Shown here piece by piece: positions 21,895 through 29,417 of a DNA stretch of 64,000 bases. Numbering within the stretch: position 1 is the first letter of the stretch; each line of letters begins with the position of its first letter. A model generated the notes under the pieces. That model did no database searches and had not been told where the DNA came from. It saw only the letters and a list, made by a program, of their open reading frames with translations. The stretch is from Nitrospinaceae bacterium. Lineage in GTDB: Bacteria > Nitrospinota > Nitrospinia > Nitrospinales > Nitrospinaceae. The stretch spans positions 1-64,000 of the forward strand of contig JAJDBJ010000036.1 of assembly GCA_029261395.1 (NCBI GenBank). The letters run 5' to 3'. The position numbers and the translations under genes are program-made.

Positions 21895-22827
21895 TTGTTA
21901 CTGTTAATTGTCAGCCGTACCCAGTCTGTTGTTTGTTGGATGCTCCTTGGTTTGTTTTTTATTCTGGGAGTACCGCCTGTTGTCCAGGCAGGCACCCCGG
22001 AAGAATCGGTCGATTCCAATAGCGATTTTTCGGATATGGTGCAAATTCCAGGGGGCCGATTCAGAATGGGTTTGTCCTTCAAACAGAGCAATCAGATACT
22101 GGATATGTGCACCAAAGTGGACAAGAACTGCACCCGCTGGTGGTTCAAGGATGAGTTGCCGGGCCATTTTGTTGACGTGGACAAATACTGGATCGATATT
22201 TACGAGGTCACCAACGAAAAATATCTGGAATTTGTGAAAGCCACCGGGCACCGACCGGCGCTGGACGACACTTGCAAAACCGATGCCTGCTGGCAGGGTA
22301 ATCTATGGAAGGGAAATGGCTTTCCCAAAAAAATCCGTAACCAGCCTGTGGCTCAGGTGAATTGGTATGATGCCGTGGCCTATTGCAAATGGCGGGGCAA
22401 ACGTCTGCCTACCGAAGCGGAATGGGAAAAGGCCGCACGCGGACCCTCGGGTAACATGTACCCCTGGGGCAACAAACCGCCGCCCGGCAAGGCGACCTAT
22501 CGCCGGAAATGGCGGGGGGTTCATACCCTGACCGATGTCGGGAGCTATCCTACCGGTGTGTCGATTTACGGGGTGCATGATTTGGCCGGCAATGTCTGGG
22601 AGTGGGTGGCCGATTGGTATGACCGGAATTATTATAAAAAGAAAATCAACTACAACCCGAAAGGGCCGAAGACCGGAAAGTTCAAGGTGGTGCGGGGCGG
22701 ATCATGGGTGAATTACGCCGACACCCTGCACAGTGCATTCCGCCGCTGGAGCCGTCCCGAAGTCCTCTTCAATGACACCGGTTTTAGGTGTGCCAAAGAC
22801 CCCATCGATGAAACCCAAACGAACTGA
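21895..22827 (+). CDS. Exported SUMF1/FGE-sulfatase-fold protein (1 of 3)
   Basis: A 310-residue protein with a signal peptide (hydrophobic stretch WMLLGLFFILGV, then VVQA). From residue 45 on it is a formylglycine-generating-enzyme fold domain: VQIPGGRFRMG, IDIYEVTNEKYLEF, KRLPTEAEWEKAARG, HDLAGNVWEWVADWY, VVRGGSW and the end GFRCA. The paired catalytic Cys of true FGE are not evident, so it is probably a related binding or modifying protein. Start is a TTG with AGGAAG close by; a CTG two codons on is an alternative. Its last 20 bases overlap the ThyX-like gene. Confidence 0.87.
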   Translation: MLLLIVSRTQSVVCWMLLGLFFILGVPPVVQAGTPEESVDSNSDFSDMVQIPGGRFRMGLSFKQSNQILDMCTKVDKNCTRWWFKDELPGHFVDVDKYWIDIYEVTNEKYLEFVKATGHRPALDDTCKTDACWQGNLWKGNGFPKKIRNQPVAQVNWYDAVAYCKWRGKRLPTEAEWEKAARGPSGNMYPWGNKPPPGKATYRRKWRGVHTLTDVGSYPTGVSIYGVHDLAGNVWEWVADWYDRNYYKKKINYNPKGPKTGKFKVVRGGSWVNYADTLHSAFRRWSRPEVLFNDTGFRCAKDPIDETQTN

Positions 22828-24472
22828 TGAATTAACCGACCACGAGAAAACCATCCTCGCTCCTTATTTGACGGACGTGGACGCCAAAGTGTTTTCTCTG
22901 AAGAACCTCAACCCGGAGGTGATCGGCGCCGCACTTGCCCGATACAGCCGGGCTCCGACTGGATTCAAGGAGACGGTGGCACGCGAATTCCTCAATCCCG
23001 ACGGCACCCCCAACGACGTTAAAGGCAGTGAGATGATCGACCGCGTCGTCAACAAGTTCGGCGACGAGTCGGTGGCGGAGTTGGCGGTCGCCCCGCTGTG
23101 CATCGAGGAAACTTCCAACCTGATGACGAAAATCATCGAAGACTGCCGCATCGGCGGTTCGCCCATCGAAGAGTCCACCCGTTATGTATTGTACGACCAG
23201 CAGAGGGAAGGGCGATGGCGTTACGTCTGTCCGGCCAACATCATGGCTTCCGGTTTGAAGGATTCCTATGTGCAGACCATGGATTTTATTTTTGAGACCT
23301 ACGCCGGTATGGTCGAGCCGATGCAGGGCCTGTTCCGGAAACGCCTGCCTGCGGAAAAATTTCAAATTGAAGTGGAACGCAATGGCGGAACCCAAAAAGC
23401 CGGGCTGAATGATCTGGAAGACGACAACGAGCGCCGGGCGCACCGCATCGCCTACAGCTTCACCATGCGCAGTGCGGCATGCGACGTGATCCGGTGCATC
23501 CTGCCTGCCGCGACTCAGGCCAACATGGGAATCGTCGGTAATGGCCGGTTTTTTTCCGGGCTTATTTCCAAATTGCTCAGTCAGGATTTGAACGAGGCGG
23601 AGGATCTGGCCGGGAAGATCAAGGAAGCGCTCGACTCGCAGATTCCGACGTTCATCAAACGCGCCGCCAAAAGAGAATACCGGATGGACATCGACCGCGC
23701 CATGCGGACTCTGTGCAACGGTTTGTTTCAGGGAGTGGCCATCGAATCGTCGCCCGAGGTGGTTCTGCTGGAGGACAAAGATGAGGAGTATTCGATCAAT
23801 CTCCTGGCATCGATGATCTTTCCTTACGTCCAACACTCGACCGAACAGATTCGCGGGATCGTCCGCGCTCTGCCGGAAGACAAGCGCCAGGAAATTTTTT
23901 CCATCTACATCGGTGATCGAAAATCGAAACGGGATCGTCCGGGTCGCGCGCTGGAATACGGGTACCCCATCAACTTCGATATCGTTGCTGGTTTCGCCGA
24001 GTACCGTGACCTGCAGAGGCATCGCATGCTGACCCAGCAGAGACAGGATATGGGAGTTCTGCTCGGCTATTCGATACCCGAAGAGATTCAGGAGATCGGC
24101 AAAGGCGAGGTGGCGCAGGAATGCTTCGAGCGGGCGGAGAGTTTGTACAACGATTTGCTACGCGCCGGCATGCGGGCCGAAGCGCAATACGCTTCCCTGT
24201 TCAATCATTTTATCCGCTGGAACATAGGAATGAATCTGAGAGAGCTGGGCCATTTCACCGAACTGCGCACGCAGAAGGCGGGGCACCCCAAATACCGCCG
24301 CGTCTGCCAGACTATGACTAAACTGTACCTGCAACGCCACCCGGAGATGGCGCCGGTGCTCAAGTACGTGGATTACAACGATTATGATCAGGGTATCACC
24401 CGCGCCGAACAGGAAGCCCGCACCGCCCGCAAAAGTCTCGCCTCCGGCGTCTTCGATGATATGGATGAATAG
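22808..24472 (+). CDS. Tandem (double-domain) ThyX-like protein
   Basis: A 554-residue protein made of two ThyX-like halves. The first half keeps EESTRYV (121-127) and YVCP but lacks the upstream RHR. The second half keeps RHR at 404-406 and the helix MNLRELGHFTELRTQKAGHP but lacks the SxRY part, reading RHRMLTQQRQDM. Canonical ThyX, the FAD-dependent thymidylate synthase, has both in one chain. So this may be an intramolecular dimer with fewer active sites, or a protein with another role. The ATG lies 20 bases inside the preceding gene, which points to coupled translation. Long upstream frames would read through the SUMF1 gene and are unlikely. Confidence 0.8.
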   Translation: MKPKRTDELTDHEKTILAPYLTDVDAKVFSLKNLNPEVIGAALARYSRAPTGFKETVAREFLNPDGTPNDVKGSEMIDRVVNKFGDESVAELAVAPLCIEETSNLMTKIIEDCRIGGSPIEESTRYVLYDQQREGRWRYVCPANIMASGLKDSYVQTMDFIFETYAGMVEPMQGLFRKRLPAEKFQIEVERNGGTQKAGLNDLEDDNERRAHRIAYSFTMRSAACDVIRCILPAATQANMGIVGNGRFFSGLISKLLSQDLNEAEDLAGKIKEALDSQIPTFIKRAAKREYRMDIDRAMRTLCNGLFQGVAIESSPEVVLLEDKDEEYSINLLASMIFPYVQHSTEQIRGIVRALPEDKRQEIFSIYIGDRKSKRDRPGRALEYGYPINFDIVAGFAEYRDLQRHRMLTQQRQDMGVLLGYSIPEEIQEIGKGEVAQECFERAESLYNDLLRAGMRAEAQYASLFNHFIRWNIGMNLRELGHFTELRTQKAGHPKYRRVCQTMTKLYLQRHPEMAPVLKYVDYNDYDQGITRAEQEARTARKSLASGVFDDMDE

Positions 24473-26457: not shown

Positions 26458-28011
26458 ATGAAAATTGGGATTCCAAAAGAGGTTCATGACGGCGAAAGAC
26501 GAGTGGCCACCACTCCGGAAGTCGCCAGCCAACTTATTAAAAAACTGGGTTTTGAAGTCGCCATTCAGTCCGGCGCCGGAGTTACCGCCAATTTTTCCGA
26601 TGCCGCGTATTCCGAAGTAGGTGTGGCGGTTGTTGAAGACGCCAAGAAGATTTGGAACGACAGCGACATCATCTTGAAGGTTCGCGCGCCGGAATTTAAT
26701 CCGGATTTGAAAACCGAAGAGGTGGATCTACTGCACGAGGGTCAAATCATCATCACCTTTCTGTGGCCCGCGCAGAACCCAGACCTGCTGAAAAAATTAT
26801 CTGAGAAAAAAGTCACCGCACTTGCGATGGACAGCATTCCTCGTATTTCCCGCGCACAAAAAATGGATGCGCTCAGCTCCATGGCCAATATCGCCGGATA
26901 CCGGGCAGTGGTCGAAGCCGCCCAGCATTTCGGCCGGTTTTTTACCGGTCAGATTACCGCCGCGGGTAAAATTCCTCCGGCGAAAGTGATGGTCATCGGT
27001 GCCGGTGTGGCCGGTCTGGCCGCCATCGGTGCCGCCCGCAGTATGGGGGCGATCGTGCGCGCTTTCGATACCCGGCCCGAAGTTAAGGAGCAGGTTGAGA
27101 GTATGGATGCGGATTTTCTCGAACTCGATTTTGAGGAAGAAGGTTCGGGTACCGGCGGTTATGCCAAAGTGATGAGTAAAGAGTTTATCGCGGCGGAAAT
27201 GGCGCTGTTTGCGGAACAGGCGAAAGAGGTGGATATCATCATCACCACCGCTTTGATTCCCGGCAAACCGGCCCCAGAACTGATTCTGGAAGATATGGTC
27301 AAGTCCATGAAAGACGGGAGCGTGATTGTCGACCTCGCCGCAGAGCAGGGCGGCAACTGCAAATTATCTGAGGCCGGCAAGGTGGTGAAAGTTCATGGCG
27401 TTTCCATCATCGGCTATACCGATCTGCCCAGCCGCCTGGCCACGCAGTCGAGCCAATTATACGGCACCAATCTACGCCATCTGTTAACGGACATGTGTCC
27501 GGAGAAAGACGGTAATGCAGTTGTGAACTTTGAAGACGAAGTGGTTCGCGGCGCCACCGTAGTTAAGAATGGTGAAATCACCTGGCCACCACCGGCACCC
27601 AAGCTATCGGCCGCGCCTGCCAAACCTGCGGAGGAGCCCGCACCGGTGGACGTAGCGGAAGAGAAGCCGTCCTGGGTGGGACCCGCCATGACGCTGGGAA
27701 TTGGCGGTTTGGCTTTATTCGGTCTGGGGGCTGTTGCCCCGGCGTCGTTCATGGCGCACTTCACCGTGTTTGTGCTGGCCTGCTTCGTGGGCTATATGGT
27801 GATCTGGAATGTTTCGCCGGCTCTGCATACGCCGCTGATGAGCGTGACCAACGCGGTCAGCAGTATCATTGTCATCGGAGCAATACTTCAGATCGGTTCG
27901 GGAGAAAAATTGATCATGTGGTTGTCCGGCCTAGCTGTGCTGATCACTGCTATTAATATTGCAGGCGGATTCGCGGTGACGCGTCGCATGCTTGAAATGT
28001 TTCGCAAATAG
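26458..28011 (+). CDS. pntA: NAD(P) transhydrogenase subunit alpha
   Basis: A 517-residue alpha subunit. Residues 1-370 are the NAD(H)-binding domain I, beginning [17 protein letters not shown] and containing the Rossmann motif [16 protein letters not shown] Pro/Ala-rich linker near 390-405 leads to four membrane helices. It has the length of the undivided enterobacterial type, not the split alpha1/alpha2 type. With PntB it couples hydride transfer from NADH to NADP+ to proton entry across the inner membrane, supplying NADPH. pntB follows after 11 bases. Confidence 0.97.
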
Positions 28012-28022
28012 GGGGCGAGGAG

Positions 28023-29417
28023 ATGAATCCAGGTATCGTAACCGTCTCTTACATAGGGGCGACTATTCTTTTTATTCTGGCACTCGGGGGATTGAGTAAC
28101 CAGGAAACAGCTCGGCGCGGAAACATTTACGGCATCATCGGGATGTTCATCGCTCTGGTGGCGACGATCGCCGGTGTCACTGCTAATATTGGTATTCTTG
28201 TGGGTGGATTGGTGATTGGTGGTGCTGTTGGTTTGATTCTGGCAAAACGTGTGCAAATGACCGAAATGCCAGAGCTGGTGGCTATCCTGCACAGTCTGGT
28301 GGGACTAGCGGCGGTGCTGGTCGGGTTCGCAAACTTTCTGGGCGGTTCCCATCATTCAGGTGTTGAATTGACCATTCACGATATTGAGACCTATCTGGGG
28401 ATTCTCATCGGTGCCGTCACGTTTTCGGGTTCGATCATCGCGTTCGGAAAACTCAGCGGTAAGATCACCGGGAATCCTATGTTGATCCCGGGCCGGCATT
28501 GGTTCAATCTTGGATTGCTGGTTGCTTCCATTTACATTTGTAAAATGTTTGTCGACCAGTCAGCCGCAGGGCATGGCGGAGGACTCACTCCTCTTTTGAT
28601 TATGACGGGCATCGCTCTGCTGTTCGGAATTCATATGGTCATGGCCATCGGCGGCGCGGATATGCCGGTCGTGGTGTCCATGCTCAACAGTTATTCCGGT
28701 TGGGCCGCCGCGGCAACCGGATTCATGCTCAACAACGACCTGCTCATCGTGACCGGTGCGCTGGTCGGTAGTAGTGGCGCCATCCTGAGTTACATCATGT
28801 GTCGCGCCATGAACCGAAAGTTCCTGTCGGTCATCGCGGGTGGATTTGGAACCACCTCAGGCAGTTCCGCCTCCGCTGAGGAAGGCGAACAGGGCGAAGT
28901 GGTCGCGATGGAAGCGCACGAGGTGGCACAACTGCTGAAAGATTCCAAAGAGGTGATGATCATTCCGGGTTACGGTATGGCCGTAGCCCAGGCTCAGCAT
29001 ATTGTGTACGAGATCACCAAAGCGCTCCGCGCCAAAAAGATAAACGTGCGGTTCGGGATTCATCCCGTCGCCGGGCGCATGCCGGGGCATATGAACGTCC
29101 TGCTGGCGGAAGCACGGGTGCCTTACGACATCGTGTACGAAATGGATGAGATCAACGACGACTTCCCGAATATCGACGTGTCCATTGTCATTGGCGCGAA
29201 TGATATTGTCAATCCGTCGGCGCAGACGGATCCCAACAGCCCGATTGCCGGTATGCCGGTTATGGAATGCTGGAAGGGTCAAACCACCGTCGTCCTGAAA
29301 CGCGGTATGGCGACCGGTTATGCGGGCGTGCAAAACCCGCTGTTCTTCAAAGAGAACACACGGATGCTGTTCGGCGACGCCGGTAAAAGCCTCGATGAGG
29401 TGTTTAAGTCGCTTTAA
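28023..29417 (+). CDS. pntB: NAD(P) transhydrogenase subunit beta
   Basis: A 464-residue beta subunit. About nine membrane helices occupy residues 1-270. The NADP(H)-binding domain III follows, with [34 protein letters not shown] and the end motif [16 protein letters not shown]. It forms the proton channel and NADP site of transhydrogenase. GGGGCGAGGAG-type ribosome bases precede the ATG, and a strong terminator follows, so pntAB is a two-gene operon. Confidence 0.97.

Follow-up and report, generated by a model that had tools for sequence, protein, structure and literature searches.

A double-length ThyX protein with its active-site motifs divided between two domains as the sole dTMP-forming candidate of a Nitrospinaceae genome

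The window analysed here, a 64,000-nt stretch of DNA from a member of the Nitrospinaceae, a family of nitrite oxidisers, contains on its forward strand a gene for a 554-aa protein in which PF02511 (ThyX) was the sole Pfam family matched, in two separate stretches (105.8 bits against a cut-off of 24.8, E = 3.2e-30). No match to the Thymidylat_synt profile PF00303, which represents ThyA, was seen in this protein, and with the equivalog model of canonical ThyX, TIGR02170, it scored 46 bits, below the cut-off of 87.9. The gene, its upstream neighbour and the features recognised within it were as follows:

21895..22827, + strand: upstream gene with an FGE-sulfatase domain; its 3′ end overlaps the thyX start by 20 nt
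22808..24472, + strand: thyX, predicted two-domain flavin-dependent thymidylate synthase gene, 554 aa plus stop (PF02511 matched twice)
22913..23647, + strand: N-terminal ThyX domain, residues 36-280 (PF02511 at 53.6 bits, cut-off 24.8; hhalign against canonical ThyX, E = 1.7e-11)
23060..23074, + strand: GDESV, residues 85-89; Ser88 of the protein is equivalent to T. maritima position 55 and M. tuberculosis Ser71 (Ser/Thr conserved in 69/69 N halves)
23141..23149, + strand: DCR, residues 112-114, degenerate RHR position of the N half with the first Arg and the His lost (alignment)
23168..23185, + strand: EESTRY, residues 121-126, SxRY dUMP/catalytic motif (T. maritima S88, R90, Y91; 69/69 N halves)
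23492..23506, + strand: RCILP, residues 229-233, T. maritima Arg147 equivalent (Arg in 69/69 N halves)
23648..23968, + strand: inter-domain region between the two PF02511 matches, helical in the AlphaFold2 model and differing among aligned relatives
23969..24346, + strand: C-terminal ThyX domain core, residues ~388-513 (PF02511 at 50.6 bits, cut-off 24.8; hhalign against canonical ThyX, E = 1.3e-10)
24017..24025, + strand: RHR, residues 404-406 (T. maritima R78-H79-R80; 69/69 C halves)
24233..24268, + strand: NLRELGHFTELR helix, residues 476-487, N163/R165/R174 equivalents (Arg174 position in 69/69 C halves)

The upstream FGE-sulfatase gene and thyX are possibly co-transcribed. In a relative, L010, the overlap between these genes measures 4 nt, and pntA-pntB, encoding an NADPH-forming transhydrogenase, come immediately after thyX; in the window pntA-pntB lie further downstream, at 26458-29417. 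A functional tie between pntA-pntB and ThyX, by way of the NADPH use of the latter, is only a guess.

The start methionine is common to the aligned relatives, and no internal stops were found in 22808-24472. Nothing was found to favour a fusion artefact of assembly or sequencing, or a decaying pseudogene, beyond the draft state of the genome (84 contigs). Against such an origin, length and reading frame are unchanged in close relatives from 12 independent Nitrospinaceae/Nitrospinota assemblies (72–93% identity) and in complete plasmids and phages. We regard the chance of an artefact or pseudogene as negligible and rejected this explanation because of the intact frame in the 12 assemblies.

Residues equivalent to S/T55, R78, H79, R80, S88, R90, Y91, R147 and R174 are all present somewhere in the 554-aa protein, but the contiguous RHRx7SxRY of canonical ThyX is found in neither domain, SxRY being confined to the N half and RHR to the C half. 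This is the arrangement of two-domain (chlamydial-type) ThyX, with SxRY and R147 in the first PF02511 domain and RHR and R174 in the second. The earlier note had described a first half with EESTRY and without RHR, and a second half with RHR and the NLRELGHFTELR helix and without SxRY. Both descriptions proved correct: DCR occupies the place of RHR in the first half, and no SxRY was found in the second. The complementarity of the halves that it had pointed out extends further, to the Ser/Thr55 and Arg147 equivalents in the first half and Arg174 in the second.

Each half could be related to canonical ThyX more readily than to its partner. Direct comparison of N-half and C-half profiles gave no match (E = 0.025), and the two halves are linked through canonical ThyX, with no visible likeness to each other. 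A phmmer search of PDB sequences with the single protein found no ThyX; when a profile of the long family was used, M. tuberculosis ThyX (2af6) was matched in two pieces, its first part by the N half and its last part by the C half.

The conservation of this division was assessed in a set of 69 two-domain ThyX proteins (after removal of near-duplicates), drawn from Nitrospinota and many further bacterial families as well as from plasmids and phages, which were split into halves and aligned with 40 canonical ThyX sequences. The T. maritima numbering was verified against the PDB sequence, where R78, S88, R147, N163 and R174 stood at the expected places. The canonical set was picked by motif, and its 40/40 conservation at positions 78-80 and 88-91 is therefore by construction, while positions 55, 147, 163, 165 and 174 are free of this selection effect. 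The two-domain proteins agreed in 69/69 cases in how the residues are divided and in which half comes first: S/T55, S88, R90, Y91 and R147 were present in every N half, and R78, H79, R80 and R174 in every C half. Conversely, Ser or Thr at position 55 was found in 12/69 C halves, S88/R90/Y91 in 1/69 and R147 in none (0/69), and Arg at position 78 in 2/69 N halves. The third Arg of RHR was retained in 47/69 N halves, and Arg stood at position 174 in 22/69 of them, although alignment in this column is uncertain and possibly off by one or two residues. The split motif is not due to chance, because the halves each align to canonical ThyX and the division recurs in 69/69 proteins.

In FastTree phylogenies, N halves formed one group and C halves another (support 0.86–1.0). 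Separate grouping of the halves speaks for a single ancient event in which ThyX was duplicated and fused, and the proposal of a ThyX duplication followed by division of the active-site residues is supported by both the family alignment and the trees. A divergent group (L113 and L115-L127; 14 proteins of 516–590 aa) showed the same division, with SHP in place of RHR in the N half, NxR gone from both halves (including Arg165) and often a Ser at position 55 in the C half.

Three individual proteins may be mentioned separately. L128 is nearly canonical in sequence and has the same division as the others. L100 has an N half with an intact RHR...SQRY and a C half with RHR and without SxRY, and, judged from its sequence, resembles a transitional form in which the division is incomplete. 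L114, a 600-aa ORF with a two-piece match, was rejected as a two-domain ThyX and left out of the counts: it is a canonical ThyX with an intein-like insert of ~345 aa between RHR and SQRY, which begins with CLSGDTVI, ends with VHN-S and contains an HNH-like stretch.

One alternative assigns catalysis to a single half and leaves its partner as a scaffold or regulator, with the catalytic half forming ordinary ThyX sites with its own kind and substituting for the missing residues. Pseudo-enzyme halves are frequent after duplication, which counts for this explanation, as do the third Arg of RHR in 47 N halves, the retention of N163/R165 in the C half and the complete RHR...SQRY in the N half of L100. 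However, neither half drifts: S88/R90/Y91/R147 are kept throughout the N halves and R78/H79/R174 throughout the C halves, and a mere scaffold would not retain precisely what the other half has lost. We consider it improbable that a single half carries the catalysis.

The AlphaFold2 monomer model reached a pLDDT of 68.5 after four viral relatives were added to the alignment; with 13 close relatives only, pLDDT was 50 and fold matches were meaningless. The best PDB matches of the model were all ThyX (probability 1.00, TM-score by target 0.53–0.63, ~210 columns), and the active-site region of the N half had a pLDDT below 50. Evidence from the model for a ThyX fold of the 554-aa protein is moderate because of its pLDDT of 68.5.

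The genome from which the window derives is a draft in 84 contigs estimated to be 97% complete. Profile searches of this genome found no ThyA, no second ThyX (only one Thy1/PF02511 protein), no thymidine kinase and no DHFR, which answers the question raised in the earlier note of whether thyA or a normal thyX exists elsewhere. Across Nitrospinota, ThyA and thymidine kinase were each found in 0/77 genomes, and ThyA was found in 0/52 genomes outside the phylum with two-domain-type ThyX matches. DHFR_1 matches were observed in 5/77 Nitrospinota genomes (G009, G040, G041, G063 and G064). Two-domain ThyX is the only dTMP-forming candidate in its own genome, where it stands in for ThyA as the dTMP source, and a thymidylate synthase function of the 554-aa protein is strongly supported by genomics.

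The same data bear on a second alternative, in which the protein has a ThyX fold but acts on a different substrate or makes a different product, for instance as a PolB-like UMP/dUMP methylase or a phage-derived base modifier, and does not serve as the cell's thymidylate synthase. PolB does have a ThyX fold, and its structure 4p5b was among the fold matches; two-domain ThyX is carried by phages and plasmids as well, and the score of the 554-aa protein lies under the TIGR02170 cut-off. Against this stand the lack of ThyA, a second ThyX and thymidine kinase in the genome searched, the lack of ThyA and thymidine kinase across the phylum, and the presence of canonical ThyX instead of the long form in sister orders of the class, and we find a different substrate or product very improbable. 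Of the two functions suggested previously, the asymmetric thymidylate synthase is favoured and a new function is less so, since no ThyA or normal ThyX was found elsewhere in the genome to provide an alternative route to dTMP.

Genomes of the order to which the window belongs contained the long ThyX, and genomes of other families and sister orders of the class (G001-G003, G067-G076) contained canonical ThyX of ~210 aa; within one class, one ThyX form appears to have been replaced by the other. Outside the phylum, two PF02511 matches were found in many genomes, most of which hold two-domain proteins of 450–600 aa. Plasmid carriers included Parabacteroides (WP_009276148), Euzebya (WP_164711104), Miltoncostaea (WP_217924789), Paenibacillus and Bacillus, and phage carriers included Tunturi_5 and Ma-LMM01. 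The plasmid two-domain proteins are named FAD-dependent thymidylate synthase in RefSeq. Searches of viral contigs with P0001 and three other queries returned no relative, and two further queries returned a few.

A link to chlamydiae is provided by G326, a genome of 1.0 Mb with the gene order GreA-NqrA-HemB-ThyX-ChxR and the chlamydia-specific ChxR_N domain. We take this order to be that of CT636-CT630 in C. trachomatis, where CT632 is presumably thyX. The sole ThyX of G326, L112, is 529 aa long and has split motifs. The C. trachomatis ThyX was reportedly studied mechanistically by Griffin et al. in 2005 (cited in PMC8316439). Since enzymology of chlamydial ThyX has been published, two-domain proteins like this one very probably function as flavin-dependent thymidylate synthases. 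Chlamydiaceae depend on thyX and are without thyA (PMC3932018, PMC4913046). The gene itself is not novel, because the subfamily is widespread, its members carry the annotation FAD-dependent thymidylate synthase, and the chlamydial enzyme appears to be one of them.

In M. tuberculosis and H. pylori ThyX, a single active site is built from three subunits: subunit A gives RHR, with its contacts to FAD and dUMP, and Arg199 (T. maritima R174); subunit B gives Ser71, which contacts FAD, and Arg190 (T. maritima position 55 and R165); and subunit C gives Ser105, Arg107 and Tyr108 (T. maritima S88, R90 and Y91) (PMC6514825). Similarly, Ser88 and Arg182 of PBCV-1 ThyX act from different monomers (PMC3498832). 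R174 takes part in dUMP binding and activation (PMC8316439, PMC6514825), and the roles of S88, R90, Y91 and R174 in the ThyX reaction are given in PMC8316439.

Translated into a pseudo-tetramer, this geometry is matched by the division pattern of the main group of two-domain proteins; among the divergent proteins, position 55 is non-discriminating and Arg165 is lost from both halves. Outside the divergent group Arg165, a B-role residue, is present in both halves, and the B role is therefore non-discriminating. We infer the following assembly, site count and chemistry. ThyX would have been duplicated in tandem and fused long ago, and complementary residue loss would then have left the A-role residues to the C half, and the C-role residues together with Ser55 to the N half. 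The C half holds the FAD-anchoring and dUMP-activating residues (RHR, R174), and the N half would supply the dUMP pocket of its neighbour (SxRY and R147, the latter a dUMP ligand of ThyX) and the adjoining FAD (S/T55). Two chains would then pair up as a pseudo-tetramer that corresponds to the ThyX homotetramer, with the C halves related as A to D, in which each C half together with both N halves would make one complete composite site. The FAD pockets of the N halves, devoid of all three residue sets, would be dead, giving two live sites instead of four. The expected reaction is that of dUMP, methylene-THF and NADPH to dTMP and THF via FAD.

Taken as a whole, the best explanation, which we hold with considerable confidence, is that the thymidylate synthase of this cell is a double-length complementary ThyX working as a two-chain pseudo-tetramer with two live sites. 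A broader generalisation seems somewhat more probable than its opposite: that a widespread and ancient subfamily, which includes the sole synthase of Nitrospinaceae and that of chlamydiae, works as an obligately asymmetric pseudo-tetramer with two composite and two dead sites, brought about, after a single duplication and fusion, by irreversible loss from each half of what its partner retains. The protein is ordinary by family; in the literature searched, mostly papers accessible without subscription, we found no description of a ThyX duplication, a split motif, its family-wide division or an assembly with two live and two dead sites.

Humans lack ThyX, which is studied as an antibacterial target (PMC3498832, PMC4913046). 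The mechanisms and inhibitors published so far are based on symmetric single-domain tetramers. In the two-domain subfamily, to which the chlamydial enzyme seems to belong, active sites would be different in number and make-up. The subfamily also offers a natural test of the assignment of residues to subunits in the ThyX site, otherwise approached only by mixing of mutants. For Nitrospinaceae, the sole candidate route to dTMP has now been identified.

Compared with known systems, the 554-aa protein shares with canonical homotetrameric ThyX/FDTS (T. maritima TM0449, M. tuberculosis ThyX) the fold, as predicted, the FAD/dUMP residues overall and the genomic role. Canonical ThyX, however, is a single chain of ~210–250 aa with a contiguous RHRx7SxRY in each subunit, whereas here the motif is split over two halves. 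PolB, the UMP/dUMP methylase of Streptomyces cacaoi (4p5a/4p5b), has the ThyX fold in common with it, but is single-domain and, by annotation, belongs to antibiotic biosynthesis. Two-domain ThyX proteins of plasmids and phages are of equal length and have their residues divided alike, but show only 21–35% identity and reside on mobile elements, not being the sole chromosomal enzyme. Finally, L112, the putative ortholog of the C. trachomatis enzyme, resembles the 554-aa protein in having two PF02511 domains, the first with SxRY and the second with RHR and R174, and in the absence of ThyA from its genome; it belongs to the ~31–35% identity class, is not a close ortholog, and lies in a different gene neighbourhood.
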